In this document: positions 5,165 through 64,000 of the stretch, in pieces
Position numbering within the stretch: the stretch's first letter is position 1
Layout of the letters: every line of letters begins with the position of its first letter
Source of the DNA: Owenia fusiformis
Lineage: Eukaryota; Annelida; Polychaeta; Sabellida; Oweniidae
NCBI GenBank assembly: GCA_903813345.2
Contig: CAIIXF020000001.1
Span: 17,629,915 to 17,693,914 of the forward strand
Direction of reading: 5' to 3'
Length of the DNA: 64,000 bases
The notes under the pieces: generated by a model
The model's input: only the letters and a program-made list of their open reading frames with translations
Databases searched by the model: none
What the model was told of the DNA's origin: nothing
Made by a program: the position numbers and the translations under genes

Positions 5165-5173
5165 ATTTATGCG

Positions 5174-7427: not shown

Positions 7428-7728
7428 GAGCTACCTGTCCCCAAAAATTCCGTTCTTTGATTTGAAAATAATTCCAAATTATGAACAAATATTCATGAGG
7501 TTTCTTGTGCAGATCGTGTTCAATGGAGCAAACAGTATTGAACTTTAGTGCATCTGAGGGATCAAGAAAAATTAATATCGAATACCAGTAGCTTTGTCTA
7601 TATTGTAATAAACACGGATGCCTGATATTCATGATTATTGTTAGACCTCTCCCACGCCTAACCATCGACAACGTACAGCACTGTAAACCTGCATAGTATA
7701 AATGCGGCAGTTCGCTTGTCACTGGTAG
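7428..7728. other. Unique flank of the satellite array
   Basis: No gene is seen. The last bases, ACTGGTAG, share only TAG with the end of unit A, so the array starts abruptly with no decayed A copy at its edge. Confidence 0.5.
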
Positions 7729-7861
7729 GTAGAAAGCAACTTACTTTTTCACCCATTGGAATACATGTAAAATTGGCAAAGTTCAAATCATAATTTCTCA
7801 AATCCCAGCCCATCGAATCCTCACATCCATTCAGATCATGTAGTCCTATTCAAAAACTTCC

Positions 7862-7898
7862 CGTTCGGTTATATGGTGAAAAAAATATCCCACGAACG
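7862..7898. repeat. Hairpin in unit B
   Basis: CGTTCG and CGAACG are 25 bases apart, with additional weak A/T pairing inside. It recurs in every B copy. Function unknown. Confidence 0.4.
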
Positions 7899-7992
7899 AA
7901 AAAAGATTTTGCTACATTTATAAGCGAGCATTGATTTCTGGGCCTGTAAAAAGCACGTAGGACCTGATTACCCCATTGATTTACTGAGACCG

Positions 7993-8017
7993 CCAAAAAT
8001 TTAATTCAATTTTTTGG
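7993..8017. repeat. AT-rich hairpin in unit B
   Basis: A nine-base stem with one bulged T and a six-base loop is present in every B copy. It is the strongest fold visible in unit B. Confidence 0.45.
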
Positions 8018-8214
8018 TTCAAAATAATAATCTGTCAGCGGTCCCTGACACTCCTACTAGCTATCACCAAACATTAATTGCCAATACATGTACACATATA
8101 CGTGCCATACATCTACAAAGTAGCGAACTAGTGTATTAAGTACTACTTTTCCTATACGATGAGCAAAACAAATCTCAAGTAGGTTATATTGACCCTATTA
8201 GTGTCATGGTTGAC

Positions 8215-8241
8215 TGAATATGCATTTTATTCAATATGAAT
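8215..8241. repeat. Overlapping alternative hairpins at the start of unit A
   Basis: TGAATA (8215-8220) can pair with TATTCA (8228-8233), and ATTCA (8229-8233) can instead pair with TGAAT (8237-8241). The two stems are mutually exclusive. They sit 13 bases into the monomer in every copy. Confidence 0.4.
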
Positions 8242-8322
8242 TTTAAAGTTCGGGGTTTTATGAAGTGATATGTACATTTTTGCTCAAATCCCCTCAGCAC
8301 TTTTGATTCTATAGGGTTCTCT

Positions 8323-8337
8323 TGACCCCTGGGGTCA
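8323..8337. repeat. GC-rich perfect palindrome in unit A
   Basis: TGACCCCTGGGGTCA has seven-base arms around one T. It can also be read as two GGGTCA half-sites pointing outward with a 3-base gap, the layout of a nuclear-receptor everted repeat. It is the most GC-rich word of the monomer and recurs in every A copy, so the array offers 58 evenly spaced sites. Protein binding is inference. Confidence 0.6.
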
Positions 8338-8571
8338 TTATATTTTGTGACAATTTATTCCAGACTAAATGTAGTTATTTTGTCATTAAAATATCTTATT
8401 AGAGAAACGTTCAGGAAAAGTTGCGCTATCCACAAGACTTCTTGTCACTGCACTGATAAATGTAGCAAAATAGTCAAAATAATTCAGCCTTGAGCATGAA
8501 ATTTTTGAATTTTTGGACAAATTTTGGGCTATTTTGGGGGATTTTTGCCCATTACGATACTAATCTACTTA

Positions 8572-8583
8572 AAACAGCTGTTT
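8572..8583. repeat. E-box palindrome in unit A
   Basis: AAACAGCTGTTT is a perfect 12-bp palindrome centred on the E-box CAGCTG. It recurs in every A copy. Confidence 0.45.
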
Positions 8584-8738
8584 AAAGTTGTACAAATTGC
8601 TTAAGTGATTTATATTCTCTCATAAGTAGGACTATTTGCTACTTTACTAAACTGAACATCATTGATTTTTCGTTTTTCATGAACTTCTGATGGCTAGTTC
8701 AAGTAGCATTGTCTTTTGTGCAGGTTTACTGAATACGT

Positions 8739-8773
8739 CCCTTTAAAATTGGGTCTTTCGTGGGTTTAAAGGG
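8739..8773. repeat. Nine-base stem-loop in unit A, site of the A/G variant
   Basis: CCCTTTAAA (8739-8747) pairs with TTTAAAGGG (8765-8773). The only shared substitution seen in the array, A to G at monomer position 568 (8769 here), falls in the right arm and changes a T-A pair to T-G, which would remain a wobble pair in RNA. Confidence 0.5.
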
Positions 8774-8918
8774 TCAAAATATTGGAACTTTGCACACCGT
8801 GGAACGTTTGGGGTGTGTTTCCTTTAATTTGGCAAGAACTGCATCAAATTACTTGATAAGAGAGCAGAAATGTAGCAATTTAGGCTGAAAAGTACTGTTT
8901 TCAATGAAAAAACGAAAA

Positions 8919-8933
8919 TTGCTGACACAGCAA
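8919..8933. repeat. Short hairpin TTGCTG-ACA-CAGCAA in unit A
   Basis: A six-base stem with a three-base loop is followed by further imperfect A/T pairing outside. It lies just after the A homopolymer whose length varies between copies (six or seven A). Confidence 0.4.
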
Positions 8934-9005
8934 AATTTAGATCGTCGTCTCCAGAATTTTAGGGGTTAATTTGCAAAACTTTAAATGGTCCCATAGAAAC
9001 ATATG

Positions 9006-9036
9006 CGAAATATGGCTAAATTCGACATATTTCTCG
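9006..9036. repeat. Hairpin near the 3' end of unit A
   Basis: CGAAATATG (9006-9014) pairs with CATATTTCTCG (9026-9036) with a two-base bulge, ending 30 bases before the monomer end TATTAG. A hairpin shortly upstream of the 3' terminus is a feature of rolling-circle (Helitron-type) elements, but the CTRR end is not present here. Confidence 0.4.
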
Positions 9037-12000
9037 AAATTCACTAATAAATGTGGTTGATATTAGTGTCATGGTTGACTGAATATGCATTTTATTCAAT
9101 ATGAATTTTAAAGTTCGGGGTTTTATGAAGTGATATGTACATTTTTGCTCAAATCCCCTCAGCACTTTTGATTCTATAGGGTTCTCTTGACCCCTGGGGT
9201 CATTATATTTTGTGACAATTTATTCCAGACTAAATGTAGTTATTTTGTCATTAAAATATCTTATTAGAGAAACGTTCAGGAAAAGTTGCGCTATCCACAA
9301 GACTTCTTGTCACTGCACTGATAAATGTAGCAAAATAGTCAAAATAATTCAGCCTTGAGCATGAAATTTTTGAATTTTTGGACAAATTTTGGGCTATTTT
9401 GGGGGATTTTTGCCCATAACGATACTAATCTACTTAAAACAGCTGTTTAAAGTTGTACAAATTGCTTAAGTGATTTATATTCTCTCATAAGTAGGACTAT
9501 TTGCTACTTTACTAAACTGAACATCATTGATTTTTCGTTTTTCATGAACTTCTGATGGCTAGTTCAAGTAGCATTGTCTTTTGTGCAGGTTTACTGAATA
9601 CGTCCCTTTAAAATTGGGTCTTTCGTGGGTTTAAAGGGTCAAAATATTGGAACTTTGCACACCGTGGAACGTTTGGGGTGTGTTTCCTTTAATTTGGCAA
9701 GAACTGCATCAAATTACTTGATAAGAGAGCAGAAATGTAGCAATTTAGGCTGAAAAGTACTGTTTTCAATGAAAAAACGAAAATTGCTGACACAGCAAAA
9801 TTTAGATCGTCGTCTCCAGAATTTTAGGGGTTAATTTGCAAAACTTTAAATGGTCCCATAGAAACATATGCGAAATATGGCTAAATTCGACATATTTCTC
9901 GAAATTCACTAATAAATGTGGTTGATATTAGTGTCATGGTTGACTGAATATGCATTTTATTCAATATGAATTTTAAAGTTCGGGGTTTTATGAAGTGATA
10001 TGTACATTTTTGCTCAAATCCCCTCAGCACTTTTGATTCTATAGGGTTCTCTTGACCCCTGGGGTCATTATATTTTGTGACAATTTATTCCAGACTAAAT
10101 GTAGTTATTTTGTCATTAAAATATCTTATTAGAGAAACGTTCAGGAAAAGTTGCGCTATCCACAAGACTTCTTGTCACTGCACTGATAAATGTAGCAAAA
10201 TAGTCAAAATAATTCAGCCTTGAGCATGAAATTTTTGAATTTTTGGACAAATTTTGGGCTATTTTGGGGGATTTTTGCCCATAACGATACTAATCTACTT
10301 AAAACAGCTGTTTAAAGTTGTACAAATTGCTTAAGTGATTTATATTCTCTCATAAGTAGGACTATTTGCTACTTTACTAAACTGAACATCATTGATTTTT
10401 CGTTTTTCATGAACTTCTGATGGCTAGTTCAAGTAGCATTGTCTTTTGTGCAGGTTTACTGAATACGTCCCTTTAAAATTGGGTCTTTCGTGGGTTTAAA
10501 GGGTCAAAATATTGGAACTTTGCACACCGTGGAACGTTTGGGGTGTGTTTCCTTTAATTTGGCAAGAACTGCATCAAATTACTTGATAAGAGAGCAGAAA
10601 TGTAGCAATTTAGGCTGAAAAGTACTGTTTTCAATGAAAAAACGAAAATTGCTGACACAGCAAAATTTAGATCGTCGTCTCCAGAATTTTAGGGGTTAAT
10701 TTGCAAAACTTTAAATGGTCCCATAGAAACATATGCGAAATATGGCTAAATTCGACATATTTCTCGAAATTCACTAATAAATGTGGTTGATATTAGTGTC
10801 ATGGTTGACTGAATATGCATTTTATTCAATATGAATTTTAAAGTTCGGGGTTTTATGAAGTGATATGTACATTTTTGCTCAAATCCCCTCAGCACTTTTG
10901 ATTCTATAGGGTTCTCTTGACCCCTGGGGTCATTATATTTTGTGACAATTTATTCCAGACTAAATGTAGTTATTTTGTCATTAAAATATCTTATTAGAGA
11001 AACGTTCAGGAAAAGTTGCGCTATCCACAAGACTTCTTGTCACTGCACTGATAAATGTAGCAAAATAGTCAAAATAATTCAGCCTTGAGCATGAAATTTT
11101 TGAATTTTTGGACAAATTTTGGGCTATTTTGGGGGATTTTTGCCCATAACGATACTAATCTACTTAAAACAGCTGTTTAAAGTTGTACAAATTGCTTAAG
11201 TGATTTATATTCTCTCATAAGTAGGACTATTTGCTACTTTACTAAACTGAACATCATTGATTTTTCGTTTTTCATGAACTTCTGATGGCTAGTTCAAGTA
11301 GCATTGTCTTTTGTGCAGGTTTACTGAATACGTCCCTTTAAAATTGGGTCTTTCGTGGGTTTAAAGGGTCAAAATATTGGAACTTTGCACACCGTGGAAC
11401 GTTTGGGGTGTGTTTCCTTTAATTTGGCAAGAACTGCATCAAATTACTTGATAAGAGAGCAGAAATGTAGCAATTTAGGCTGAAAAGTACTGTTTTCAAT
11501 GAAAAAAACGAAAATTGCTGACACAGCAAAATTTAGATCGTCGTCTCCAGAATTTTAGGGGTTAATTTGCAAAACTTTAAATGGTCCCATAGAAACATAT
11601 GCGAAATATGGCTAAATTCGACATATTTCTCGAAATTCACTAATAAATGTGGTTGATATTAGTGTCATGGTTGACTGAATATGCATTTTATTCAATATGA
11701 ATTTTAAAGTTCGGGGTTTTATGAAGTGATATGTACATTTTTGCTCAAATCCCCTCAGCACTTTTGATTCTATAGGGTTCTCTTGACCCCTGGGGTCATT
11801 ATATTTTGTGACAATTTATTCCAGACTAAATGTAGTTATTTTGTCATTAAAATATCTTATTAGAGAAACGTTCAGGAAAAGTTGCGCTATCCACAAGACT
11901 TCTTGTCACTGCACTGATAAATGTAGCAAAATAGTCAAAATAATTCAGCCTTGAGCATGAAATTTTTGAATTTTTGGACAAATTTTGGGCTATTTTGGGG

Positions 12001-13392
12001 GATTTTTGCCCATAACGATACTAATCTACTTAAAACAGCTGTTTAAAGTTGTACAAATTGCTTAAGTGATTTATATTCTCTCATAAGTAGGACTATTTGC
12101 TACTTTACTAAACTGAACATCATTGATTTTTCGTTTTTCATGAACTTCTGATGGCTAGTTCAAGTAGCATTGTCTTTTGTGCAGGTTTACTGAATACGTC
12201 CCTTTAAAATTGGGTCTTTCGTGGGTTTAAAGGGTCAAAATATTGGAACTTTGCACACCGTGGAACGTTTGGGGTGTGTTTCCTTTAATTTGGCAAGAAC
12301 TGCATCAAATTACTTGATAAGAGAGCAGAAATGTAGCAATTTAGGCTGAAAAGTACTGTTTTCAATGAAAAAACGAAAATTGCTGACACAGCAAAATTTA
12401 GATCGTCGTCTCCAGAATTTTAGGGGTTAATTTGCAAAACTTTAAATGGTCCCATAGAAACATATGCGAAATATGGCTAAATTCGACATATTTCTCGAAA
12501 TTCACTAATAAATGTGGTTGATATTAGTGTCATGGTTGACTGAATATGCATTTTATTCAATATGAATTTTAAAGTTCGGGGTTTTATGAAGTGATATGTA
12601 CATTTTTGCTCAAATCCCCTCAGCACTTTTGATTCTATAGGGTTCTCTTGACCCCTGGGGTCATTATATTTTGTGACAATTTATCCCAGACTAAATGTAG
12701 TTATTTTGTCATTAAAATATCTTATTAGAGAAACGTTCAGGAAAAGTTGCGCTATCCACAAGACTTCTTGTCACTGCACTGATAAATGTAGCAAAATAGT
12801 CAAAATAATTCAGCCTTGAGCATGAAATTTTTGAATTTTTGGACAAATTTTGGGCTATTTTGGGGGATTTTTGCCCATAACGATACTAATCTACTTAAAA
12901 CAGCTGTTTAAAGTTGTACAAATTGCTTAAGTGATTTATATTCTCTCATAAGTAGGACTATTTGCTACTTTACTAAACTGAACATCATTGATTTTTCGTT
13001 TTTCATGAACTTCTGATGGCTAGTTCAAGTAGCATTGTCTTTTGTGCAGGTTTACTGAATACGTCCCTTTAAAATTGGGTCTTTCGTGGGTTTAAAGGGT
13101 CAAAATATTGGAACTTTGCACACCGTGGAACGTTTGGGGTGTGTTTCCTTTAATTTGGCAAGAACTGCATCAAATTACTTGATAAGAGAGCAGAAATGTA
13201 GCAATTTAGGCTGAAAAGTACTGTTTTCAATGAAAAAACGAAAATTGCTGACACAGCAAAATTTAGATCGTCGTCTCCAGAATTTTAGGGGTTAATTTGC
13301 AAAACTTTAAATGGTCCCATAGAAACATATGCGAAATATGGCTAAATTCGACATATTTCTCGAAATTCACTAATAAATGTGGTTGATATTAG

Positions 13393-13865
13393 GTAGAAAG
13401 CAACTTACTTTTTCACCCATTGGAATACATGTAAAATTGGCAAAGTTCAAATCATAATTTCTCAAATCCCAGCCCATCGAATCCTCACATCCATTCAGAT
13501 CATGTAGTCCTATTCAAAAACTTCCCGTTCGGTTATATGGTGAAAAAAATATCCCACGAACGAAAAAAGATTTTGCTACATTTATAAGCGAGCATTGATT
13601 TCTGGGCCTGTAAAAAGCACGTAGGACCTGATTACCCCATTGATTTACTGAGACCGCCAAAAATTTAATTCAATTTTTTGGTTCAAAATAATAATCTGTC
13701 AGCGGTCCCTGACACTCCTACTAGCTATCACCAAACATTAATTGCCAATACATGTACACATATACGTGCCATACATCTACAAAGTAGCGAACTAGTGTAT
13801 TAAGTACTACTTTTCCTATACGATGAGCAAAACAAATCTCAAGTAGGTTATATTGACCCTATTAG
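13393..13865. repeat. Unit B, copy 2
   Basis: A full 473-bp copy between A6 and A7. The entry junction reads GATATTAG|GTAGAAAG and the exit junction CCTATTAG|TGTCATGG. Confidence 0.95.
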
Positions 13866-16800
13866 TGTCATGGTTGACTGAATATGCATTTTATTCAATA
13901 TGAATTTTAAAGTTCGGGGTTTTATGAAGTGATATGTACATTTTTGCTCAAATCCCCTCAGCACTTTTGATTCTATAGGGTTCTCTTGACCCCTGGGGTC
14001 ATTATATTTTGTGACAATTTATTCCAGACTAAATGTAGTTATTTTGTCATTAAAATATCTTATTAGAGAAACGTTCAGGAAAAGTTGCGCTATCCACAAG
14101 ACTTCTTGTCACTGCACTGATAAATGTAGCAAAATAGTCAAAATAATTCAGCCTTGAGCATGAAATTTTTGAATTTTTGGACAAATTTTGGGCTATTTTG
14201 GGGGATTTTTGCCCATAACGATACTAATCTACTTAAAACAGCTGTTTAAAGTTGTACAAATTGCTTAAGTGATTTATATTCTCTCATAAGTAGGACTATT
14301 TGCTACTTTACTAAACTGAACATCATTGATTTTTCGTTTTTCATGAACTTCTGATGGCTAGTTCAAGTAGCATTGTCTTTTGTGCAGGTTTACTGAATAC
14401 GTCCCTTTAAAATTGGGTCTTTCGTGGGTTTAAAGGGTCAAAATATTGGAACTTTGCACACCGTGGAACGTTTGGGGTGTGTTTCCTTTAATTTGGCAAG
14501 AACTGCATCAAATTACTTGATAAGAGAGCAGAAATGTAGCAATTTAGGCTGAAAAGTACTGTTTTCAATGAAAAAACGAAAATTGCTGACACAGCAAAAT
14601 TTAGATCGTCGTCTCCAGAATTTTAGGGGTTAATTTGCAAAACTTTAAATGGTCCCATAGAAACATATGCGAAATATGGCTAAATTCGACATATTTCTCG
14701 AAATTCACTAATAAATGTGGTTGATATTAGTGTCATGGTTGACTGAATATGCATTTTATTCAATATGAATTTTAAAGTTCGGGGTTTTATGAAGTGATAT
14801 GTACATTTTTGCTCAAATCCCCTCAGCACTTTTGATTCTATAGGGTTCTCTTGACCCCTGGGGTCATTATATTTTGTGACAATTTATTCCAGACTAAATG
14901 TAGTTATTTTGTCATTAAAATATCTTATTAGAGAAACGTTCAGGAAAAGTTGCGCTATCCACAAGACTTCTTGTCACTGCACTGATAAATGTAGCAAAAT
15001 AGTCAAAATAATTCAGCCTTGAGCATGAAATTTTTGAATTTTTGGACAAATTTTGGGCTATTTTGGGGGATTTTTGCCCATAACGATACTAATCTACTTA
15101 AAACAGCTGTTTAAAGTTGTACAAATTGCTTAAGTGATTTATATTCTCTCATAAGTAGGACTATTTGCTACTTTACTAAACTGAACATCATTGATTTTTC
15201 GTTTTTCATGAACTTCTGATGGCTAGTTCAAGTAGCATTGTCTTTTGTGCAGGTTTACTGAATACGTCCCTTTAAAATTGGGTCTTTCGTGGGTTTAAAG
15301 GGTCAAAATATTGGAACTTTGCACACCGTGGAACGTTTGGGGTGTGTTTCCTTTAATTTGGCAAGAACTGCATCAAATTACTTGATAAGAGAGCAGAAAT
15401 GTAGCAATTTAGGCTGAAAAGTACTGTTTTCAATGAAAAAACGAAAATTGCTGACACAGCAAAATTTAGATCGTCGTCTCCAGAATTTTAGGGGTTAATT
15501 TGCAAAACTTTAAATGGTCCCATAGAAACATATGCGAAATATGGCTAAATTCGACATATTTCTCGAAATTCACTAATAAATGTGGTTGATATTAGTGTCA
15601 TGGTTGACTGAATATGCATTTTATTCAATATGAATTTTAAAGTTCGGGGTTTTATGAAGTGATATGTACATTTTTGCTCAAATCCCCTCAGCACTTTTGA
15701 TTCTATAGGGTTCTCTTGACCCCTGGGGTCATTATATTTTGTGACAATTTATTCCAGACTAAATGTAGTTATTTTGTCATTAAAATATCTTATTAGAGAA
15801 ACGTTCAGGAAAAGTTGCGCTATCCACAAGACTTCTTGTCACTGCACTGATAAATGTAGCAAAATAGTCAAAATAATTCAGCCTTGAGCATGAAATTTTT
15901 GAATTTTTGGACAAATTTTGGGCTATTTTGGGGGATTTTTGCCCATAACGATACTAATCTACTTAAAACAGCTGTTTAAAGTTGTACAAATTGCTTAAGT
16001 GATTTATATTCTCTCATAAGTAGGACTATTTGCTACTTTACTAAACTGAACATCATTGATTTTTCGTTTTTCATGAACTTCTGATGGCTAGTTCAAGTAG
16101 CATTGTCTTTTGTGCAGGTTTACTGAATACGTCCCTTTAAAATTGGGTCTTTCGTGGGTTTAAAGGGTCAAAATATTGGAACTTTGCACACCGTGGAACG
16201 TTTGGGGTGTGTTTCCTTTAATTTGGCAAGAACTGCATCAAATTACTTGATAAGAGAGCAGAAATGTAGCAATTTAGGCTGAAAAGTACTGTTTTCAATG
16301 AAAAAACGAAAATTGCTGACACAGCAAAATTTAGATCGTCGTCTCCAGAATTTTAGGGGTTAATTTGCAAAACTTTAAATGGTCCCATAGAAACATATGC
16401 GAAATATGGCTAAATTCGACATATTTCTCGAAATTCACTAATAAATGTGGTTGATATTAGTGTCATGGTTGACTGAATATGCATTTTATTCAATATGAAT
16501 TTTAAAGTTCGGGGTTTTATGAAGTGATATGTACATTTTTGCTCAAATCCCCTCAGCACTTTTGATTCTATAGGGTTCTCTTGACCCCTGGGGTCATTAT
16601 ATTTTGTGACAATTTATTCCAGACTAAATGTAGTTATTTTGTCATTAAAATATCTTATTAGAGAAACGTTCAGGAAAAGTTGCGCTATCCACAAGACTTC
16701 TTGTCACTGCACTGATAAATGTAGCAAAATAGTCAAAATAATTCAGCCTTGAGCATGAAATTTTTGAATTTTTGGACAAATTTTGGGCTATTTTGGGGGA

Positions 16801-19800
16801 TTTTTGCCCATAACGATACTAATCTACTTAAAACAGCTGTTTAAAGTTGTACAAATTGCTTAAGTGATTTATATTCTCTCATAAGTAGGACTATTTGCTA
16901 CTTTACTAAACTGAACATCATTGATTTTTCGTTTTTCATGAACTTCTGATGGCTAGTTCAAGTAGCATTGTCTTTTGTGCAGGTTTACTGAATACGTCCC
17001 TTTAAAATTGGGTCTTTCGTGGGTTTAAAGGGTCAAAATATTGGAACTTTGCACACCGTGGAACGTTTGGGGTGTGTTTCCTTTAATTTGGCAAGAACTG
17101 CATCAAATTACTTGATAAGAGAGCAGAAATGTAGCAATTTAGGCTGAAAAGTACTGTTTTCAATGAAAAAACGAAAATTGCTGACACAGCAAAATTTAGA
17201 TCGTCGTCTCCAGAATTTTAGGGGTTAATTTGCAAAACTTTAAATGGTCCCATAGAAACATATGCGAAATATGGCTAAATTCGACATATTTCTCGAAATT
17301 CACTAATAAATGTGGTTGATATTAGTGTCATGGTTGACTGAATATGCATTTTATTCAATATGAATTTTAAAGTTCGGGGTTTTATGAAGTGATATGTACA
17401 TTTTTGCTCAAATCCCCTCAGCACTTTTGATTCTATAGGGTTCTCTTGACCCCTGGGGTCATTATATTTTGTGACAATTTATTCCAGACTAAATGTAGTT
17501 ATTTTGTCATTAAAATATCTTATTAGAGAAACGTTCAGGAAAAGTTGCGCTATCCACAAGACTTCTTGTCACTGCACTGATAAATGTAGCAAAATAGTCA
17601 AAATAATTCAGCCTTGAGCATGAAATTTTTGAATTTTTGGACAAATTTTGGGCTATTTTGGGGGATTTTTGCCCATAACGATACTAATCTACTTAAAACA
17701 GCTGTTTAAAGTTGTACAAATTGCTTAAGTGATTTATATTCTCTCATAAGTAGGACTATTTGCTACTTTACTAAACTGAACATCATTGATTTTTCGTTTT
17801 TCATGAACTTCTGATGGCTAGTTCAAGTAGCATTGTCTTTTGTGCAGGTTTACTGAATACGTCCCTTTAAAATTGGGTCTTTCGTGGGTTTAAAGGGTCA
17901 AAATATTGGAACTTTGCACACCGTGGAACGTTTGGGGTGTGTTTCCTTTAATTTGGCAAGAACTGCATCAAATTACTTGATAAGAGAGCAGAAATGTAGC
18001 AATTTAGGCTGAAAAGTACTGTTTTCAATGAAAAAACGAAAATTGCTGACACAGCAAAATTTAGATCGTCGTCTCCAGAATTTTAGGGGTTAATTTGCAA
18101 AACTTTAAATGGTCCCATAGAAACATATGCGAAATATGGCTAAATTCGACATATTTCTCGAAATTCACTAATAAATGTGGTTGATATTAGTGTCATGGTT
18201 GACTGAATATGCATTTTATTCAATATGAATTTTAAAGTTCGGGGTTTTATGAAGTGATATGTACATTTTTGCTCAAATCCCCTCAGCACTTTTGATTCTA
18301 TAGGGTTCTCTTGACCCCTGGGGTCATTATATTTTGTGACAATTTATTCCAGACTAAATGTAGTTATTTTGTCATTAAAATATCTTATTAGAGAAACGTT
18401 CAGGAAAAGTTGCGCTATCCACAAGACTTCTTGTCACTGCACTGATAAATGTAGCAAAATAGTCAAAATAATTCAGCCTTGAGCATGAAATTTTTGAATT
18501 TTTGGACAAATTTTGGGCTATTTTGGGGGATTTTTGCCCATAACGATACTAATCTACTTAAAACAGCTGTTTAAAGTTGTACAAATTGCTTAAGTGATTT
18601 ATATTCTCTCATAAGTAGGACTATTTGCTACTTTACTAAACTGAACATCATTGATTTTTCGTTTTTCATGAACTTCTGATGGCTAGTTCAAGTAGCATTG
18701 TCTTTTGTGCAGGTTTACTGAATACGTCCCTTTAAAATTGGGTCTTTCGTGGGTTTAAAGGGTCAAAATATTGGAACTTTGCACACCGTGGAACGTTTGG
18801 GGTGTGTTTCCTTTAATTTGGCAAGAACTGCATCAAATTACTTGATAAGAGAGCAGAAATGTAGCAATTTAGGCTGAAAAGTACTGTTTTCAATGAAAAA
18901 ACGAAAATTGCTGACACAGCAAAATTTAGATCGTCGTCTCCAGAATTTTAGGGGTTAATTTGCAAAACTTTAAATGGTCCCATAGAAACATATGCGAAAT
19001 ATGGCTAAATTCGACATATTTCTCGAAATTCACTAATAAATGTGGTTGATATTAGTGTCATGGTTGACTGAATATGCATTTTATTCAATATGAATTTTAA
19101 AGTTCGGGGTTTTATGAAGTGATATGTACATTTTTGCTCAAATCCCCTCAGCACTTTTGATTCTATAGGGTTCTCTTGACCCCTGGGGTCATTATATTTT
19201 GTGACAATTTATTCCAGACTAAATGTAGTTATTTTGTCATTAAAATATCTTATTAGAGAAACGTTCAGGAAAAGTTGCGCTATCCACAAGACTTCTTGTC
19301 ACTGCACTGATAAATGTAGCAAAATAGTCAAAATAATTCAGCCTTGAGCATGAAATTTTTGAATTTTTGGACAAATTTTGGGCTATTTTGGGGGATTTTT
19401 GCCCATAACGATACTAATCTACTTAAAACAGCTGTTTAAAGTTGTACAAATTGCTTAAGTGATTTATATTCTCTCATAAGTAGGACTATTTGCTACTTTA
19501 CTAAACTGAACATCATTGATTTTTCGTTTTTCATGAACTTCTGATGGCTAGTTCAAGTAGCATTGTCTTTTGTGCAGGTTTACTGAATACGTCCCTTTAA
19601 AATTGGGTCTTTCGTGGGTTTAAAGGGTCAAAATATTGGAACTTTGCACACCGTGGAACGTTTGGGGTGTGTTTCCTTTAATTTGGCAAGAACTGCATCA
19701 AATTACTTGATAAGAGAGCAGAAATGTAGCAATTTAGGCTGAAAAGTACTGTTTTCAATGAAAAAACGAAAATTGCTGACACAGCAAAATTTAGATCGTC

Positions 19801-19920
19801 GTCTCCAGAATTTTAGGGGTTAATTTGCAAAACTTTAAATGGTCCCATAGAAACATATGCGAAATATGGCTAAATTCGACATATTTCTCGAAATTCACTA
19901 ATAAATGTGGTTGATATTAG
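13866..19920. repeat. A run 2: seven copies (A7-A13)
   Basis: Copies start at 13866, 14731, 15596, 16461, 17326, 18191 and 19056. All are exactly 865 bp; no variant was seen by eye. Confidence 0.95.
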
Positions 19921-20393
19921 GTAGAAAGCAACTTACTTTTTCACCCATTGGAATACATGTAAAATTGGCAAAGTTCAAATCATAATTTCTCAAATCCCAG
20001 CCCATCGAATCCTCACATCCATTCAGATCATGTAGTCCTATTCAAAAACTTCCCGTTCGGTTATATGGTGAAAAAAATATCCCACGAACGAAAAAAGATT
20101 TTGCTACATTTATAAGCGAGCATTGATTTCTGGGCCTGTAAAAAGCACGTAGGACCTGATTACCCCATTGATTTACTGAGACCGCCAAAAATTTAATTCA
20201 ATTTTTTGGTTCAAAATAATAATCTGTCAGCGGTCCCTGACACTCCTACTAGCTATCACCAAACATTAATTGCCAATACATGTACACATATACGTGCCAT
20301 ACATCTACAAAGTAGCGAACTAGTGTATTAAGTACTACTTTTCCTATACGATGAGCAAAACAAATCTCAAGTAGGTTATATTGACCCTATTAG
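19921..20393. repeat. Unit B, copy 3
   Basis: Full 473-bp copy, same junctions as copy 2. Confidence 0.95.
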
Positions 20394-22123: not shown

Positions 22124-22596
22124 GTAGAAAGCAACTTACTTTTTCACCCATTGGAATACATGTAAAATTGGCAAAGTTCAAATCATAATTTCTCAAATCC
22201 CAGCCCATCGAATCCTCACATCCATTCAGATCATGTAGTCCTATTCAAAAACTTCCCGTTCGGTTATATGGTGAAAAAAATATCCCACGAACGAAAAAAG
22301 ATTTTGCTACATTTATAAGCGAGCATTGATTTCTGGGCCTGTAAAAAGCACGTAGGACCTGATTACCCCATTGATTTACTGAGACCGCCAAAAATTTAAT
22401 TCAATTTTTTGGTTCAAAATAATAATCTGTCAGCGGTCCCTGACACTCCTACTAGCTATCACCAAACATTAATTGCCAATACATGTACACATATACGTGC
22501 CATACATCTACAAAGTAGCGAACTAGTGTATTAAGTACTACTTTTCCTATACGATGAGCAAAACAAATCTCAAGTAGGTTATATTGACCCTATTAG
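22124..22596. repeat. Unit B, copy 4
   Basis: Full 473-bp copy. Only two A units separate it from copy 3, the shortest spacing in the left two thirds of the array. Confidence 0.95.
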
Positions 22597-44778: not shown

Positions 44779-45251
44779 GTAGAAAGCAACTTACTTTTTC
44801 ACCCATTGGAATACATGTAAAATTGGCAAAGTTCAAATCATAATTTCTCAAATCCCAGCCCATCGAATCCTCACATCCATTCAGATCATGTAGTCCTATT
44901 CAAAAACTTCCCGTTCGGTTATATGGTGAAAAAAATATCCCACGAACGAAAAAAGATTTTGCTACATTTATAAGCGAGCATTGATTTCTGGGCCTGTAAA
45001 AAGCACGTAGGACCTGATTACCCCATTGATTTACTGAGACCGCCAAAAATTTAATTCAATTTTTTGGTTCAAAATAATAATCTGTCAGCGGTCCCTGACA
45101 CTCCTACTAGCTATCACCAAACATTAATTGCCAATACATGTACACATATACGTGCCATACATCTACAAAGTAGCGAACTAGTGTATTAAGTACTACTTTT
45201 CCTATACGATGAGCAAAACAAATCTCAAGTAGGTTATATTGACCCTATTAG
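44779..45251. repeat. Unit B, copy 8
   Basis: Full 473-bp copy between A39 and A40; it precedes the longest A run. Confidence 0.95.
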
Positions 45252-54200: not shown

Positions 54201-55633
54201 AAATTTTTGAATTTTTGGACAAATTTTGGGCTATTTTGGGGGATTTTTGCCCATAACGATACTAATCTACTTAAAACAGCTGTTTAAAGTTGTACAAATT
54301 GCTTAAGTGATTTATATTCTCTCATAAGTAGGACTATTTGCTACTTTACTAAACTGAACATCATTGATTTTTCGTTTTTCATGAACTTCTGATGGCTAGT
54401 TCAAGTAGCATTGTCTTTTGTGCAGGTTTACTGAATACGTCCCTTTAAAATTGGGTCTTTCGTGGGTTTAGAGGGTCAAAATATTGGAACTTTGCACACC
54501 GTGGAACGTTTGGGGTGTGTTTCCTTTAATTTGGCAAGAACTGCATCAAATTACTTGATAAGAGAGCAGAAATGTAGCAATTTAGGCTGAAAAGTACTGT
54601 TTTCAATGAAAAAACGAAAATTGCTGACACAGCAAAATTTAGATCGTCGTCTCCAGAATTTTAGGGGTTAATTTGCAAAACTTTAAATGGTCCCATAGAA
54701 ACATATGCGAAATATGGCTAAATTCGACATATTTCTCGAAATTCACTAATAAATGTGGTTGATATTAGTGTCATGGTTGACTGAATATGCATTTTATTCA
54801 ATATGAATTTTAAAGTTCGGGGTTTTATGAAGTGATATGTACATTTTTGCTCAAATCCCCTCAGCACTTTTGATTCTATAGGGTTCTCTTGACCCCTGGG
54901 GTCATTATATTTTGTGACAATTTATTCCAGACTAAATGTAGTTATTTTGTCATTAAAATATCTTATTAGAGAAACGTTCAGGAAAAGTTGCGCTATCCAC
55001 AAGACTTCTTGTCACTGCACTGATAAATGTAGCAAAATAGTCAAAATAATTCAGCCTTGAGCATGAAATTTTTGAATTTTTGGACAAATTTTGGGCTATT
55101 TTGGGGGATTTTTGCCCATAACGATACTAATCTACTTAAAACAGCTGTTTAAAGTTGTACAAATTGCTTAAGTGATTTATATTCTCTCATAAGTAGGACT
55201 ATTTGCTACTTTACTAAACTGAACATCATTGATTTTTCGTTTTTCATGAACTTCTGATGGCTAGTTCAAGTAGCATTGTCTTTTGTGCAGGTTTACTGAA
55301 TACGTCCCTTTAAAATTGGGTCTTTCGTGGGTTTAGAGGGTCAAAATATTGGAACTTTGCACACCGTGGAACGTTTGGGGTGTGTTTCCTTTAATTTGGC
55401 AAGAACTGCATCAAATTACTTGATAAGAGAGCAGAAATGTAGCAATTTAGGCTGAAAAGTACTGTTTTCAATGAAAAAACGAAAATTGCTGACACAGCAA
55501 AATTTAGATCGTCGTCTCCAGAATTTTAGGGGTTAATTTGCAAAACTTTAAATGGTCCCATAGAAACATATGCGAAATATGGCTAAATTCGACATATTTC
55601 TCGAAATTCACTAATAAATGTGGTTGATATTAG
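45252..55633. repeat. A run 8: twelve copies (A40-A51), longest run
   Basis: Copies start at 45252, 46117, 46982, 47848, 48713, 49578, 50444, 51309, 52174, 53039, 53904 and 54769. A42 and A45, three copies apart, are both 866 bp, suggesting a three-copy segmental duplication inside the run. The last two copies, A50 and A51, are the first to carry G at monomer position 568 (54471 in A50). Confidence 0.95.
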
Positions 55634-56106
55634 GTAGAAAGCAACTTACTTTTTCACCCATTGGAATACATGTAAAATTGGCAAAGTTCAAATCATAATT
55701 TCTCAAATCCCAGCCCATCGAATCCTCACATCCATTCAGATCATGTAGTCCTATTCAAAAACTTCCCGTTCGGTTATATGGTGAAAAAAATATCCCACGA
55801 ACGAAAAAAGATTTTGCTACATTTATAAGCGAGCATTGATTTCTGGGCCTGTAAAAAGCACGTAGGACCTGATTACCCCATTGATTTACTGAGACCGCCA
55901 AAAATTTAATTCAATTTTTTGGTTCAAAATAATAATCTGTCAGCGGTCCCTGACACTCCTACTAGCTATCACCAAACATTAATTGCCAATACATGTACAC
56001 ATATACGTGCCATACATCTACAAAGTAGCGAACTAGTGTATTAAGTACTACTTTTCCTATACGATGAGCAAAACAAATCTCAAGTAGGTTATATTGACCC
56101 TATTAG
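55634..56106. repeat. Unit B, copy 9
   Basis: Full 473-bp copy; from here to the window edge B units become frequent, with one to three A copies between them. Confidence 0.95.
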
Positions 56107-58702
56107 TGTCATGGTTGACTGAATATGCATTTTATTCAATATGAATTTTAAAGTTCGGGGTTTTATGAAGTGATATGTACATTTTTGCTCAAATCCCCTC
56201 AGCACTTTTGATTCTATAGGGTTCTCTTGACCCCTGGGGTCATTATATTTTGTGACAATTTATTCCAGACTAAATGTAGTTATTTTGTCATTAAAATATC
56301 TTATTAGAGAAACGTTCAGGAAAAGTTGCGCTATCCACAAGACTTCTTGTCACTGCACTGATAAATGTAGCAAAATAGTCAAAATAATTCAGCCTTGAGC
56401 ATGAAATTTTTGAATTTTTGGACAAATTTTGGGCTATTTTGGGGGATTTTTGCCCATAACGATACTAATCTACTTAAAACAGCTGTTTAAAGTTGTACAA
56501 ATTGCTTAAGTGATTTATATTCTCTCATAAGTAGGACTATTTGCTACTTTACTAAACTGAACATCATTGATTTTTCGTTTTTCATGAACTTCTGATGGCT
56601 AGTTCAAGTAGCATTGTCTTTTGTGCAGGTTTACTGAATACGTCCCTTTAAAATTGGGTCTTTCGTGGGTTTAAAGGGTCAAAATATTGGAACTTTGCAC
56701 ACCGTGGAACGTTTGGGGTGTGTTTCCTTTAATTTGGCAAGAACTGCATCAAATTACTTGATAAGAGAGCAGAAATGTAGCAATTTAGGCTGAAAAGTAC
56801 TGTTTTCAATGAAAAAACGAAAATTGCTGACACAGCAAAATTTAGATCGTCGTCTCCAGAATTTTAGGGGTTAATTTGCAAAACTTTAAATGGTCCCATA
56901 GAAACATATGCGAAATATGGCTAAATTCGACATATTTCTCGAAATTCACTAATAAATGTGGTTGATATTAGTGTCATGGTTGACTGAATATGCATTTTAT
57001 TCAATATGAATTTTAAAGTTCGGGGTTTTATGAAGTGATATGTACATTTTTGCTCAAATCCCCTCAGCACTTTTGATTCTATAGGGTTCTCTTGACCCCT
57101 GGGGTCATTATATTTTGTGACAATTTATTCCAGACTAAATGTAGTTATTTTGTCATTAAAATATCTTATTAGAGAAACGTTCAGGAAAAGTTGCGCTATC
57201 CACAAGACTTCTTGTCACTGCACTGATAAATGTAGCAAAATAGTCAAAATAATTCAGCCTTGAGCATGAAATTTTTGAATTTTTGGACAAATTTTGGGCT
57301 ATTTTGGGGGATTTTTGCCCATAACGATACTAATCTACTTAAAACAGCTGTTTAAAGTTGTACAAATTGCTTAAGTGATTTATATTCTCTCATAAGTAGG
57401 ACTATTTGCTACTTTACTAAACTGAACATCATTGATTTTTCGTTTTTCATGAACTTCTGATGGCTAGTTCAAGTAGCATTGTCTTTTGTGCAGGTTTACT
57501 GAATACGTCCCTTTAAAATTGGGTCTTTCGTGGGTTTAGAGGGTCAAAATATTGGAACTTTGCACACCGTGGAACGTTTGGGGTGTGTTTCCTTTAATTT
57601 GGCAAGAACTGCATCAAATTACTTGATAAGAGAGCAGAAATGTAGCAATTTAGGCTGAAAAGTACTGTTTTCAATGAAAAAAACGAAAATTGCTGACACA
57701 GCAAAATTTAGATCGTCGTCTCCAGAATTTTAGGGGTTAATTTGCAAAACTTTAAATGGTCCCATAGAAACATATGCGAAATATGGCTAAATTCGACATA
57801 TTTCTCGAAATTCACTAATAAATGTGGTTGATATTAGTGTCATGGTTGACTGAATATGCATTTTATTCAATATGAATTTTAAAGTTCGGGGTTTTATGAA
57901 GTGATATGTACATTTTTGCTCAAATCCCCTCAGCACTTTTGATTCTATAGGGTTCTCTTGACCCCTGGGGTCATTATATTTTGTGACAATTTATTCCAGA
58001 CTAAATGTAGTTATTTTGTCATTAAAATATCTTATTAGAGAAACGTTCAGGAAAAGTTGCGCTATCCACAAGACTTCTTGTCACTGCACTGATAAATGTA
58101 GCAAAATAGTCAAAATAATTCAGCCTTGAGCATGAAATTTTTGAATTTTTGGACAAATTTTGGGCTATTTTGGGGGATTTTTGCCCATAACGATACTAAT
58201 CTACTTAAAACAGCTGTTTAAAGTTGTACAAATTGCTTAAGTGATTTATATTCTCTCATAAGTAGGACTATTTGCTACTTTACTAAACTGAACATCATTG
58301 ATTTTTCGTTTTTCATGAACTTCTGATGGCTAGTTCAAGTAGCATTGTCTTTTGTGCAGGTTTACTGAATACGTCCCTTTAAAATTGGGTCTTTCGTGGG
58401 TTTAAAGGGTCAAAATATTGGAACTTTGCACACCGTGGAACGTTTGGGGTGTGTTTCCTTTAATTTGGCAAGAACTGCATCAAATTACTTGATAAGAGAG
58501 CAGAAATGTAGCAATTTAGGCTGAAAAGTACTGTTTTCAATGAAAAAACGAAAATTGCTGACACAGCAAAATTTAGATCGTCGTCTCCAGAATTTTAGGG
58601 GTTAATTTGCAAAACTTTAAATGGTCCCATAGAAACATATGCGAAATATGGCTAAATTCGACATATTTCTCGAAATTCACTAATAAATGTGGTTGATATT
58701 AG
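56107..58702. repeat. A run 9: three copies (A52-A54)
   Basis: Copies start at 56107, 56972 and 57838. A53 carries both the G at position 568 and the extra A (866 bp); A52 and A54 have neither. It is the only copy seen to combine the two variants. Confidence 0.95.
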
Positions 58703-59175
58703 GTAGAAAGCAACTTACTTTTTCACCCATTGGAATACATGTAAAATTGGCAAAGTTCAAATCATAATTTCTCAAATCCCAGCCCATCGAATCCTCACAT
58801 CCATTCAGATCATGTAGTCCTATTCAAAAACTTCCCGTTCGGTTATATGGTGAAAAAAATATCCCACGAACGAAAAAAGATTTTGCTACATTTATAAGCG
58901 AGCATTGATTTCTGGGCCTGTAAAAAGCACGTAGGACCTGATTACCCCATTGATTTACTGAGACCGCCAAAAATTTAATTCAATTTTTTGGTTCAAAATA
59001 ATAATCTGTCAGCGGTCCCTGACACTCCTACTAGCTATCACCAAACATTAATTGCCAATACATGTACACATATACGTGCCATACATCTACAAAGTAGCGA
59101 ACTAGTGTATTAAGTACTACTTTTCCTATACGATGAGCAAAACAAATCTCAAGTAGGTTATATTGACCCTATTAG
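58703..59175. repeat. Unit B, copy 10
   Basis: Full 473-bp copy between A54 and A55. Confidence 0.95.
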
Positions 59176-60040
59176 TGTCATGGTTGACTGAATATGCATT
59201 TTATTCAATATGAATTTTAAAGTTCGGGGTTTTATGAAGTGATATGTACATTTTTGCTCAAATCCCCTCAGCACTTTTGATTCTATAGGGTTCTCTTGAC
59301 CCCTGGGGTCATTATATTTTGTGACAATTTATTCCAGACTAAATGTAGTTATTTTGTCATTAAAATATCTTATTAGAGAAACGTTCAGGAAAAGTTGCGC
59401 TATCCACAAGACTTCTTGTCACTGCACTGATAAATGTAGCAAAATAGTCAAAATAATTCAGCCTTGAGCATGAAATTTTTGAATTTTTGGACAAATTTTG
59501 GGCTATTTTGGGGGATTTTTGCCCATAACGATACTAATCTACTTAAAACAGCTGTTTAAAGTTGTACAAATTGCTTAAGTGATTTATATTCTCTCATAAG
59601 TAGGACTATTTGCTACTTTACTAAACTGAACATCATTGATTTTTCGTTTTTCATGAACTTCTGATGGCTAGTTCAAGTAGCATTGTCTTTTGTGCAGGTT
59701 TACTGAATACGTCCCTTTAAAATTGGGTCTTTCGTGGGTTTAGAGGGTCAAAATATTGGAACTTTGCACACCGTGGAACGTTTGGGGTGTGTTTCCTTTA
59801 ATTTGGCAAGAACTGCATCAAATTACTTGATAAGAGAGCAGAAATGTAGCAATTTAGGCTGAAAAGTACTGTTTTCAATGAAAAAACGAAAATTGCTGAC
59901 ACAGCAAAATTTAGATCGTCGTCTCCAGAATTTTAGGGGTTAATTTGCAAAACTTTAAATGGTCCCATAGAAACATATGCGAAATATGGCTAAATTCGAC
60001 ATATTTCTCGAAATTCACTAATAAATGTGGTTGATATTAG
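59176..60040. repeat. A run 10: single copy (A55)
   Basis: One 865-bp copy with G at position 568, giving a plain 1,338-bp B-A unit with copy 10 of B. Confidence 0.95.
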
Positions 60041-60513
60041 GTAGAAAGCAACTTACTTTTTCACCCATTGGAATACATGTAAAATTGGCAAAGTTCAAAT
60101 CATAATTTCTCAAATCCCAGCCCATCGAATCCTCACATCCATTCAGATCATGTAGTCCTATTCAAAAACTTCCCGTTCGGTTATATGGTGAAAAAAATAT
60201 CCCACGAACGAAAAAAGATTTTGCTACATTTATAAGCGAGCATTGATTTCTGGGCCTGTAAAAAGCACGTAGGACCTGATTACCCCATTGATTTACTGAG
60301 ACCGCCAAAAATTTAATTCAATTTTTTGGTTCAAAATAATAATCTGTCAGCGGTCCCTGACACTCCTACTAGCTATCACCAAACATTAATTGCCAATACA
60401 TGTACACATATACGTGCCATACATCTACAAAGTAGCGAACTAGTGTATTAAGTACTACTTTTCCTATACGATGAGCAAAACAAATCTCAAGTAGGTTATA
60501 TTGACCCTATTAG
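60041..60513. repeat. Unit B, copy 11
   Basis: Full 473-bp copy between A55 and A56. Confidence 0.95.
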
Positions 60514-62243
60514 TGTCATGGTTGACTGAATATGCATTTTATTCAATATGAATTTTAAAGTTCGGGGTTTTATGAAGTGATATGTACATTTTTGCTCAAA
60601 TCCCCTCAGCACTTTTGATTCTATAGGGTTCTCTTGACCCCTGGGGTCATTATATTTTGTGACAATTTATTCCAGACTAAATGTAGTTATTTTGTCATTA
60701 AAATATCTTATTAGAGAAACGTTCAGGAAAAGTTGCGCTATCCACAAGACTTCTTGTCACTGCACTGATAAATGTAGCAAAATAGTCAAAATAATTCAGC
60801 CTTGAGCATGAAATTTTTGAATTTTTGGACAAATTTTGGGCTATTTTGGGGGATTTTTGCCCATAACGATACTAATCTACTTAAAACAGCTGTTTAAAGT
60901 TGTACAAATTGCTTAAGTGATTTATATTCTCTCATAAGTAGGACTATTTGCTACTTTACTAAACTGAACATCATTGATTTTTCGTTTTTCATGAACTTCT
61001 GATGGCTAGTTCAAGTAGCATTGTCTTTTGTGCAGGTTTACTGAATACGTCCCTTTAAAATTGGGTCTTTCGTGGGTTTAAAGGGTCAAAATATTGGAAC
61101 TTTGCACACCGTGGAACGTTTGGGGTGTGTTTCCTTTAATTTGGCAAGAACTGCATCAAATTACTTGATAAGAGAGCAGAAATGTAGCAATTTAGGCTGA
61201 AAAGTACTGTTTTCAATGAAAAAACGAAAATTGCTGACACAGCAAAATTTAGATCGTCGTCTCCAGAATTTTAGGGGTTAATTTGCAAAACTTTAAATGG
61301 TCCCATAGAAACATATGCGAAATATGGCTAAATTCGACATATTTCTCGAAATTCACTAATAAATGTGGTTGATATTAGTGTCATGGTTGACTGAATATGC
61401 ATTTTATTCAATATGAATTTTAAAGTTCGGGGTTTTATGAAGTGATATGTACATTTTTGCTCAAATCCCCTCAGCACTTTTGATTCTATAGGGTTCTCTT
61501 GACCCCTGGGGTCATTATATTTTGTGACAATTTATTCCAGACTAAATGTAGTTATTTTGTCATTAAAATATCTTATTAGAGAAACGTTCAGGAAAAGTTG
61601 CGCTATCCACAAGACTTCTTGTCACTGCACTGATAAATGTAGCAAAATAGTCAAAATAATTCAGCCTTGAGCATGAAATTTTTGAATTTTTGGACAAATT
61701 TTGGGCTATTTTGGGGGATTTTTGCCCATAACGATACTAATCTACTTAAAACAGCTGTTTAAAGTTGTACAAATTGCTTAAGTGATTTATATTCTCTCAT
61801 AAGTAGGACTATTTGCTACTTTACTAAACTGAACATCATTGATTTTTCGTTTTTCATGAACTTCTGATGGCTAGTTCAAGTAGCATTGTCTTTTGTGCAG
61901 GTTTACTGAATACGTCCCTTTAAAATTGGGTCTTTCGTGGGTTTAGAGGGTCAAAATATTGGAACTTTGCACACCGTGGAACGTTTGGGGTGTGTTTCCT
62001 TTAATTTGGCAAGAACTGCATCAAATTACTTGATAAGAGAGCAGAAATGTAGCAATTTAGGCTGAAAAGTACTGTTTTCAATGAAAAAACGAAAATTGCT
62101 GACACAGCAAAATTTAGATCGTCGTCTCCAGAATTTTAGGGGTTAATTTGCAAAACTTTAAATGGTCCCATAGAAACATATGCGAAATATGGCTAAATTC
62201 GACATATTTCTCGAAATTCACTAATAAATGTGGTTGATATTAG
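60514..62243. repeat. A run 11: two copies (A56-A57)
   Basis: Copies start at 60514 and 61379. A56 has A and A57 has G at position 568, so both alleles sit side by side. Confidence 0.95.
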
Positions 62244-62716
62244 GTAGAAAGCAACTTACTTTTTCACCCATTGGAATACATGTAAAATTGGCAAAGTTCA
62301 AATCATAATTTCTCAAATCCCAGCCCATCGAATCCTCACATCCATTCAGATCATGTAGTCCTATTCAAAAACTTCCCGTTCGGTTATATGGTGAAAAAAA
62401 TATCCCACGAACGAAAAAAGATTTTGCTACATTTATAAGCGAGCATTGATTTCTGGGCCTGTAAAAAGCACGTAGGACCTGATTACCCCATTGATTTACT
62501 GAGACCGCCAAAAATTTAATTCAATTTTTTGGTTCAAAATAATAATCTGTCAGCGGTCCCTGACACTCCTACTAGCTATCACCAAACATTAATTGCCAAT
62601 ACATGTACACATATACGTGCCATACATCTACAAAGTAGCGAACTAGTGTATTAAGTACTACTTTTCCTATACGATGAGCAAAACAAATCTCAAGTAGGTT
62701 ATATTGACCCTATTAG
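62244..62716. repeat. Unit B, copy 12
   Basis: Full 473-bp copy between A57 and A58. Confidence 0.95.
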
Positions 62717-63581
62717 TGTCATGGTTGACTGAATATGCATTTTATTCAATATGAATTTTAAAGTTCGGGGTTTTATGAAGTGATATGTACATTTTTGCTC
62801 AAATCCCCTCAGCACTTTTGATTCTATAGGGTTCTCTTGACCCCTGGGGTCATTATATTTTGTGACAATTTATTCCAGACTAAATGTAGTTATTTTGTCA
62901 TTAAAATATCTTATTAGAGAAACGTTCAGGAAAAGTTGCGCTATCCACAAGACTTCTTGTCACTGCACTGATAAATGTAGCAAAATAGTCAAAATAATTC
63001 AGCCTTGAGCATGAAATTTTTGAATTTTTGGACAAATTTTGGGCTATTTTGGGGGATTTTTGCCCATAACGATACTAATCTACTTAAAACAGCTGTTTAA
63101 AGTTGTACAAATTGCTTAAGTGATTTATATTCTCTCATAAGTAGGACTATTTGCTACTTTACTAAACTGAACATCATTGATTTTTCGTTTTTCATGAACT
63201 TCTGATGGCTAGTTCAAGTAGCATTGTCTTTTGTGCAGGTTTACTGAATACGTCCCTTTAAAATTGGGTCTTTCGTGGGTTTAGAGGGTCAAAATATTGG
63301 AACTTTGCACACCGTGGAACGTTTGGGGTGTGTTTCCTTTAATTTGGCAAGAACTGCATCAAATTACTTGATAAGAGAGCAGAAATGTAGCAATTTAGGC
63401 TGAAAAGTACTGTTTTCAATGAAAAAACGAAAATTGCTGACACAGCAAAATTTAGATCGTCGTCTCCAGAATTTTAGGGGTTAATTTGCAAAACTTTAAA
63501 TGGTCCCATAGAAACATATGCGAAATATGGCTAAATTCGACATATTTCTCGAAATTCACTAATAAATGTGGTTGATATTAG
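62717..63581. repeat. A run 12: single copy (A58)
   Basis: One 865-bp copy with G at position 568; with copy 12 of B it makes a second plain 1,338-bp B-A unit. Confidence 0.95.
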
Positions 63582-64000
63582 GTAGAAAGCAACTTACTTT
63601 TTCACCCATTGGAATACATGTAAAATTGGCAAAGTTCAAATCATAATTTCTCAAATCCCAGCCCATCGAATCCTCACATCCATTCAGATCATGTAGTCCT
63701 ATTCAAAAACTTCCCGTTCGGTTATATGGTGAAAAAAATATCCCACGAACGAAAAAAGATTTTGCTACATTTATAAGCGAGCATTGATTTCTGGGCCTGT
63801 AAAAAGCACGTAGGACCTGATTACCCCATTGATTTACTGAGACCGCCAAAAATTTAATTCAATTTTTTGGTTCAAAATAATAATCTGTCAGCGGTCCCTG
63901 ACACTCCTACTAGCTATCACCAAACATTAATTGCCAATACATGTACACATATACGTGCCATACATCTACAAAGTAGCGAACTAGTGTATTAAGTACTACT
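63582..64000. repeat. Unit B, copy 13 (cut by the window end)
   Basis: The first 419 of 473 bases are present and match the other copies, so the array continues beyond the window. Confidence 0.95.

Follow-up and report, generated by a model that had tools for sequence, protein, structure and literature searches.

What kind of sequence is a tandem array in which one unit, B, is each time followed by a run of a second unit, A, and in which the number of A differs widely from run to run? This question is raised by a stretch of 64,000 nucleotides from the annelid Owenia fusiformis (GenBank assembly GCA_903813345.2; contig CAIIXF020000001.1, here C1; C1:17629915-17693914 of a 498-Mb genome), which we refer to as the window, and in which the original prediction, made from the letters alone, recognized a composite satellite of A (865 bp) and B (473 bp). 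Our analysis indicates that the array very probably goes back to one insertion of a non-autonomous, KolobokP-type transposon that was then multiplied in place, with B being the long terminal direct repeat (LTDR) and A the interior (INT) of this transposon. The assignment to KolobokP is made by architecture, ends, target-site duplication (TSD), joints, and the domain matches of a coding relative in the same genome.

Using BLAST and an alignment of all units, we observe that positions 7729-64000 are tiled by A and B in a single orientation with zero unassigned bases, which bears out the two-unit tiling originally proposed. The window contains 58 complete A and 13 B (12 complete, with the 13th cut at the window end), and the predicted lengths of the A runs, i.e., 1 to 12 A after each B, were reproduced exactly (6,7,2,5,8,6,5,12,3,1,2,1). 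The array extends 6,658 bases beyond the window (continuation L001), where 3 more B and 6 more A are located, and ends with a B at C1:17,700,572, so that as assembled its 62,930 bp consist of 16 B and 64 A, with A runs of 6,7,2,5,8,6,5,12,3,1,2,1,2,2,2. All 16 B are identical, and the 64 A represent 7 distinct sequences with one or two changes from the commonest; array A are 99.77-100% identical to the reference copy and array B 100%, and at this level of identity the tiling is not a matter of chance. Tandem Repeats Finder, where the longest period covered was 500, reported no A/B array in the window. A simple higher-order-repeat satellite, with a fixed unit order per period, was considered and rejected, since the runs vary from 1 to 12. 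With B taken as 468 bp, and A plus spacer as ~870 bp, the features of the window are as follows.

7725-7727, no strand: left copy of the target duplication, GTA; the right copy follows the last B of the array immediately, beyond the window end (L001, C1:17.70 Mb)
7728-8195, plus strand: B 1, LTDR, 468 bp, GG...CC
8196-13391, plus strand: 6 A (INT), with a 5-bp TATTA spacer at the left of the run
13392-13859, plus strand: B 2 (LTDR)
13860-19919, plus strand: 7 A
19920-20387, plus strand: B 3 (LTDR)
20388-22122, plus strand: 2 A
22123-22590, plus strand: B 4 (LTDR)
22591-26920, plus strand: 5 A
26921-27388, plus strand: B 5 (LTDR)
27389-34314, plus strand: 8 A
34315-34782, plus strand: B 6 (LTDR)
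34783-39978, plus strand: 6 A
39979-40446, plus strand: B 7 (LTDR)
40447-44777, plus strand: 5 A
44778-45245, plus strand: B 8 (LTDR)
45246-55632, plus strand: 12 A, the final two with 568A>G
55633-56100, plus strand: B 9 (LTDR)
56101-58701, plus strand: 3 A, the second with 568A>G
58702-59169, plus strand: B 10 (LTDR)
59170-60039, plus strand: 1 A, with 568A>G
60040-60507, plus strand: B 11 (LTDR)
60508-62242, plus strand: 2 A, the second with 568A>G
62243-62710, plus strand: B 12 (LTDR)
62711-63580, plus strand: 1 A, with 568A>G
63581-64000, plus strand: B 13 (LTDR), cut at the window end; the array goes on

The designation of this array as a composite satellite of two units gives way to a different one, as the whole 63-kb array is enclosed by one 3-bp duplication, GTA...GTA, with B as a terminal direct repeat and A as a transposon interior. 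Examination of 28 loci where both ends are readable demonstrated a left end of GG and a right end of ...ACCC, and an identical 3-bp flanking duplication was present in 27 of these 28 loci; with the addition of an array on C10 (TTA/TTA) and a coding copy on C5 (TTA/TTA), a 3-bp TSD is found at 29 of 30 loci. The duplication differs from array to array: GTA at C1:17.6, TTA at C1:41.89, TCA at C5:37.2, ACA at C9:7.2, and TAA at C2:9.57 (positions in Mb). The target is a weak palindrome, C-NNN-G, with the C present in 19 of 28 loci, the G in 20 of 28, and both in 12 of 28. The element-side bases are G and C without exception, while 15 of the 27 matching loci have an outer base other than the C or G of the palindrome, so that the duplication covers 3 bp and not 5. 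The PIF/Harbinger group was weighed on the basis of a 3-bp TSD and a palindromic target, and was set aside when the KolobokP-type relative described below came to light.

The same units occur throughout the genome. The first 31 bases of B have 215 exact genome copies (98 forward and 117 reverse), and all 12 large contigs carry the A/B element, solo B being numerous; the 100 listed places of this 31-mer lie on C1 to C7, with copies on C8 to C12 coming from other searches. Twenty regions were taken from the 31-mer list, i.e., 17 isolated B, two B pairs, and the array continuation, with other regions added later. The 17 isolated B comprise 12 solo B (L008 without a right end), two fragments (L011 and L016), and three others: L002, an array end; L010, a B-A-B whose right B is shortened; and L013, a B-A plus just the final bases of a right B. 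L011, L013, and L016 are truncated or rearranged. Both ends were read in 11 solo B. A single B-A-B is found at L019, L020, L032-L035, L041, and L042, in addition to L010, and the other forms seen are B-A-A-B (L030), B-B-B (L029), B(AB)3, B(AB)16, and mixed arrays. Wherever a locus was read on both sides, B forms its outermost units, with the right B cut short in L010 and L013. Identity to the array B is 90-97% for most solo B, which are hence older than the homogeneous array, and 99.8% for one (L017). Foreign sequences, several with visible inverted ends, are located inside the B copies of L009, L014, L015, L016, L018, L019, and L041, and those compared have no BLAST match to one another. A separate dispersed family, whose overlapping, offset matches at many loci suggest short tandem units, is present at L005:2135-2601 (C2:6562372-6562838).

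Among the insertions read, the copy number ranges from 1 to 64 A. For example, the array at C1:41.89 Mb contains 42 A and 20 B in 45,787 bp, with A runs of 1,4,3,1,1,2,3,1,4,1,3,2,3,2,2,3,3,1,2, and the array at C5:37.2 Mb has A runs of 2,2,2,4,4,6, as judged from B spacing. The proposal that A varies on its own inside a B-A framework therefore holds at both of these loci, but not at C9:7.2 Mb, where 16 A at 1336-1337 bp spacing keep a constant one A per B; the smaller array at C2:9.57, B(AB)3, has 3 A and B-A joints only. A search of the assembly for A and B, as had been suggested, found arrays with variable A runs at other loci together with many solo B, and the units occur well beyond a single locus.

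A coding relative of this element is present in the same genome. A profile search with PF05551 (I-PpoI-like zinc-loop) gave 54 genome matches and none in 14 control genomes, and many of these matches are spaced 3345-3347 or 3819-3822 bp apart (a difference of ~475) on the unplaced contigs C513, C443, C418, and C313. On all four contigs a coding KolobokP-like unit is repeated in long tandem series, and the listed nuclease frames have no internal stop. The LTDR of the relative is 470 bp and aligns to B over its whole length, with 310 of 454 aligned bases identical (68%), and its inverted ends match at 14 of 17 bases (0 of 20,000 shuffles). In its interior (L049), a 691-aa frame matches the Mutator-like transposase PF20700 (E 2.3e-45), and a 125-aa frame on the opposite (minus) strand matches PF05551 (E 6.9e-10); against solved structures, the best match of this 125-aa frame is I-PpoI, at E 0.036-0.046, which is not significant alone. 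A likeness between TTA/GGTAG and the I-PpoI site is too short to be of use. We class this relative as an autonomous-looking KolobokP-type element, with a transposase and a nuclease predicted by profile match. Its transposase may have moved B, and the ends of B, by their likeness to the repeat of the relative, would carry the signals recognized by this enzyme.

These features are those described for KolobokP by Kojima & Bao (2022; PMC9587614), who list Owenia fusiformis among the hosts. In that description KolobokP has the form LTDR-INT-LTDR and RR...YY ends, with LTDRs that measure around 450 or 660 bp and themselves carry short inverted repeats of 11-18 bp; solo LTDRs have TSDs of 3-4 or 4-5 bp, multimers lie within one TSD, and the autonomous elements encode a DDD/E transposase, of a lineage marked by C/DxxH and two zinc fingers, and, on the opposite strand, a His-Me nuclease. 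LTDR-(INT)n-LTDR was reported with n = 2 and 4, with an INT-INT joint that retains one of the two terminal TATA, and one-sided loss of 1 to 5 bases was described after LTDR excision. Our element shares the LTDR of near 450 bp, the RR...YY ends, the short TSD, the solo LTDRs, the multimers in one TSD, and the INT-INT joints with one terminal short repeat, and its longer relative has a predicted transposase and His-Me nuclease. There are also differences: the INT runs reach 12, with 64 INT in one array, whereas the available excerpts of PMC9587614 give runs of 2 and 4; C-NNN-G targets are favored here, whereas no strong target preference was reported there; and tandem LTDR-LTDR joints (C11 and C313) are not mentioned in these excerpts.

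The joints between units account for the arrangement of the array. After B, A starts with TATTAG, and before B, A ends with TATTA, while the A-A joint, GATATTAGTGTC, retains a single TATTA. Exact A-A joints number 93 and occur at six places only: 49 at C1:17.6, 23 at C1:41.9, 14 at C5:37.2, three each at C7:3.5 and C9:14.8, and one at C8:33.7. B-B joints number two, both in the one B-B-B element on C11 (L029; TSD ATT), so that the statement that two B are never adjacent stands for the array in the window but fails elsewhere in the genome. Exchange between like units, A with A or B with B, cannot create a joint type that is not already present. An array seeded by B-A therefore keeps one A per B, a single seeded A-A joint gives free A runs and no B-B, and a seeded B-B gives a B-only array. 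B is thus never next to B because recombination takes place between like units, unless a B-B joint was seeded, as at C11, and the B(A)n grammar needs no special rule.

The same joints are present in the coding relative at the same place as in A and B, with INT-INT and LTDR-INT on C513 and LTDR-LTDR on C313. By spacing, the 13 neighboring pairs on C513 divide into 8 without an intervening LTDR and 5 with one, and of the 16 pairs in the main series of C313, 8 have none, 7 have one, and one has two; one piece each of C513 and C313 was read in sequence, the other intervals being called by spacing. In this relative the 5-mers on the two sides of the LTDR differ (TAATA and TATTA), and the INT-INT joint, GAATATTAGTCACACC, has no left TAATA. 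As the 5-mers differ and it is the left one that is lost, this fits a one-sided loss following excision better than slippage between perfect repeats.

Variation within and between loci points to growth in place. Among the distinct A copies read within one locus, substitutions average 0-0.15%, compared with 0.1-4.5% between loci, several arrays having been read at their edges only. Between the arrays at C2:9.57 and C9:7.2 the distance is 0.1% for A and 0.0% for B, and the two probably share the same source; given this near-identity, their different TSDs (TAA and ACA) and A numbers (3 and 16) indicate that a recent jump was accompanied or followed by a change in copy number. In the array under study, 568A>G is found in 9 of 64 A, all within the final 15 (none of 20,000 shuffles was equally tight), and partly in repeating B-A-A* blocks. 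A one-base A-tract variant at 705, present in 8 of 64 A, shows no clustering (span p 0.88) and could reflect slippage or an error of sequencing. One B sequence and two A sequences, which differ by the A-tract variant only (3 of 42), make up the C1:41.89 array. This growth is most simply read as unequal exchange at the locus. We also observe that private substitutions fall A:B 60:9 in 13 young loci (binomial p 1.7e-4), 34:11 in 6 older loci (p 0.21), and 94:20 in all loci (p 2.1e-4), with B counted as 436 bp because 8 of the 13 young loci were picked by an exact B 31-mer, with the young/older split made after seeing the tree, and with the A-less B-B-B locus excluded.

Based on these observations, we propose that a B-A-B element or short multimer inserted and duplicated 3 bp, leaving the GTA seen at both outer edges, with the transposase probably supplied by a KolobokP relative. 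Unequal exchange between the direct B repeats would then give B-A-B-A-B multimers, as the 1-, 3-, and 16-A insertions elsewhere suggest. At least once, an inner B and one adjoining 5-bp TATTA repeat would have been lost, creating an A-A joint; excision by the transposase is the most likely route, given the published KolobokP footprint and the differing 5-mers of the relative. From the variant map, unequal exchange of A would subsequently alter run lengths freely, and exchange of B-A-A blocks would spread a local variant. As B-B cannot arise from these exchanges, the B(A)n grammar would follow.

Several observations weigh against this interpretation. One locus with both ends readable, L041, has no matching TSD. 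The inverted ends of B are weak, matching at 10 of the first 17 bases (127 of 20,000 shuffles), a test length chosen after seeing the ends of the coding relative, and at 6 of the first 12 (2,745 of 20,000); a gapped local test for inverted ends in B was not significant (813 of 5000). Comparison of A with the interior of the relative showed no homology (best E 0.25). The two B of one element differ by 0-0.64%, with the maximum at L030, and the array lengths and run counts are those of the assembly. Loci with A-A joints do not form a single clade (approximately unbiased test, AU, p 0.001), which fits either several excisions or one excision followed by losses, and we claim no number of origins; repeated origin of A-A joints was considered and set aside, since the AU test rejects one clade, yet losses account for this equally well.

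The alternative that survives best, which we regard as possible but unlikely, is that multimers form before insertion, from a B-A or A circle that is copied by rolling circle or inserted repeatedly. The near-identical units within an array and the one TSD round whole arrays fit this route as well, and a circle route was left open by the authors of PMC9587614. However, 568A>G is limited to one array end and partly occurs in B-A-A* blocks, as exchange at the locus predicts, the insertions read carry anything from 1 to 64 A, and run lengths differ inside one array. It is considerably less probable that variable runs are an artefact of collapsed or falsely joined repeats, even though array lengths are known from the assembly and several unplaced contigs with long runs of the relative's units indicate that such arrays trouble assembly. 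A-A joints are found at six separate places, including the short B-A-A-B of L030; C1:17.6, C1:41.9, C5:37.2, and C8:33.7 were read to both, different, flanks; and independent counts agree, with the 49, 23, and 14 A-A joints equaling A minus runs.

We find it harder still to credit that the element is a terminal-repeat retrotransposon in miniature (TRIM) or other non-autonomous long terminal repeat (LTR) retrotransposon, giving tandem LTR-internal arrays and solo LTRs. LTR retrotransposons have TG...CA ends and a TSD of 4-6 bp, whereas here the ends are GG...CC and the TSD is 3 bp. Inspection by eye of the first and last 30 interior bases on both strands found neither a tRNA primer site nor a polypurine tract beside B, with no TGG within 8 bases of B and no purine run, and a DNA-transposon relative with homologous repeats is present in the same genome. 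Membership in the LTR/TRIM group was rejected on the ends, the TSD length, and the missing primer site, despite the same organization of terminal direct repeats that alternate with a short interior in biv-TRIM arrays, TDRx_I(x-1), up to TDR58_I57 in a clam and with solo repeats reported (PMC6934838), and in tandem Cassandra arrays (PMC7215508); in our arrays, unlike those, interiors repeat without a terminal repeat between them. Least credible of all is an ordinary locus-bound satellite with higher-order repeats and dispersed copies as escaped fragments. Its tandem, homogeneous units that lack a recognized gene speak for this reading, but the dispersed copies have precise ends and TSDs at 27 of 28 loci, and the solo B are mostly older than the array.

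The KolobokP-kind element, as represented in the window, appears to be non-coding. Stop-free frames in A do not exceed 67 aa, and for ten frames of A and B, 41-66 aa in length, the one Pfam match, to DUF423 at E 0.13, falls below the cut-off; four open reading frames of the left flank had no Pfam match. Rfam over window positions 1-14000 found no family in B and one weak match in A (ZNRD1-AS1_2, E 3.5, below gathering). In the left flank, window positions 420-557 match Rfam MIR9563 at 63.1 bits, below the gathering score of 90, and are probably a hairpin-forming repeat.

Two other systems show partial likeness. Tandem LTR retrotransposons in plants (PMC11899658) also form an array in a single target duplication, which was inferred to derive from one insertion, but these are retrotransposons with coding regions, and the examples in the available excerpts have few units. 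In satellites derived from miniature inverted-repeat transposable elements (PMC12628747), the interior of a DNA transposon likewise becomes a tandem repeat, with adjoining short direct repeats proposed as the seed, but the satellite no longer contains the transposon ends, which are inverted repeats, whereas our array retains its direct-repeat ends. In small form, the grammar explained here has already been published; the array size and the near-perfect homogeneity are new and, together with the series of stages, are what this case adds, and in the literature searched we found no other report of KolobokP arrays of satellite size.

A broader idea, which we put forward tentatively and think unlikely to hold in full, is that the KolobokP transposase and nuclease pair could act as a satellite-making machine. 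The nuclease, acting in trans, would cut at or in LTDRs, and repair of these breaks would expand arrays; excision of LTDRs by the transposase would leave INT-INT joints that can be neither cut nor excised, INT runs would accumulate, and an LTDR-poor satellite would result. The LTDR-poor tendency looks alike in the coding relative, in the C513 and C313 intervals (8 of 13 and 8 of 16, by spacing) that have no LTDR.

The birth of satellite DNA is an old open question, and in O. fusiformis one genome presents stages side by side: the solo repeat, the single element, B-A-A-B, short arrays, and arrays of 46 and 63 kb, with target duplications bounding them and hardly any substitutions within the two large arrays, both of which were read completely. 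This series of stages is present in both a non-coding and a coding family, and the nuclease-induced unequal crossover proposed for KolobokP thereby becomes directly testable.

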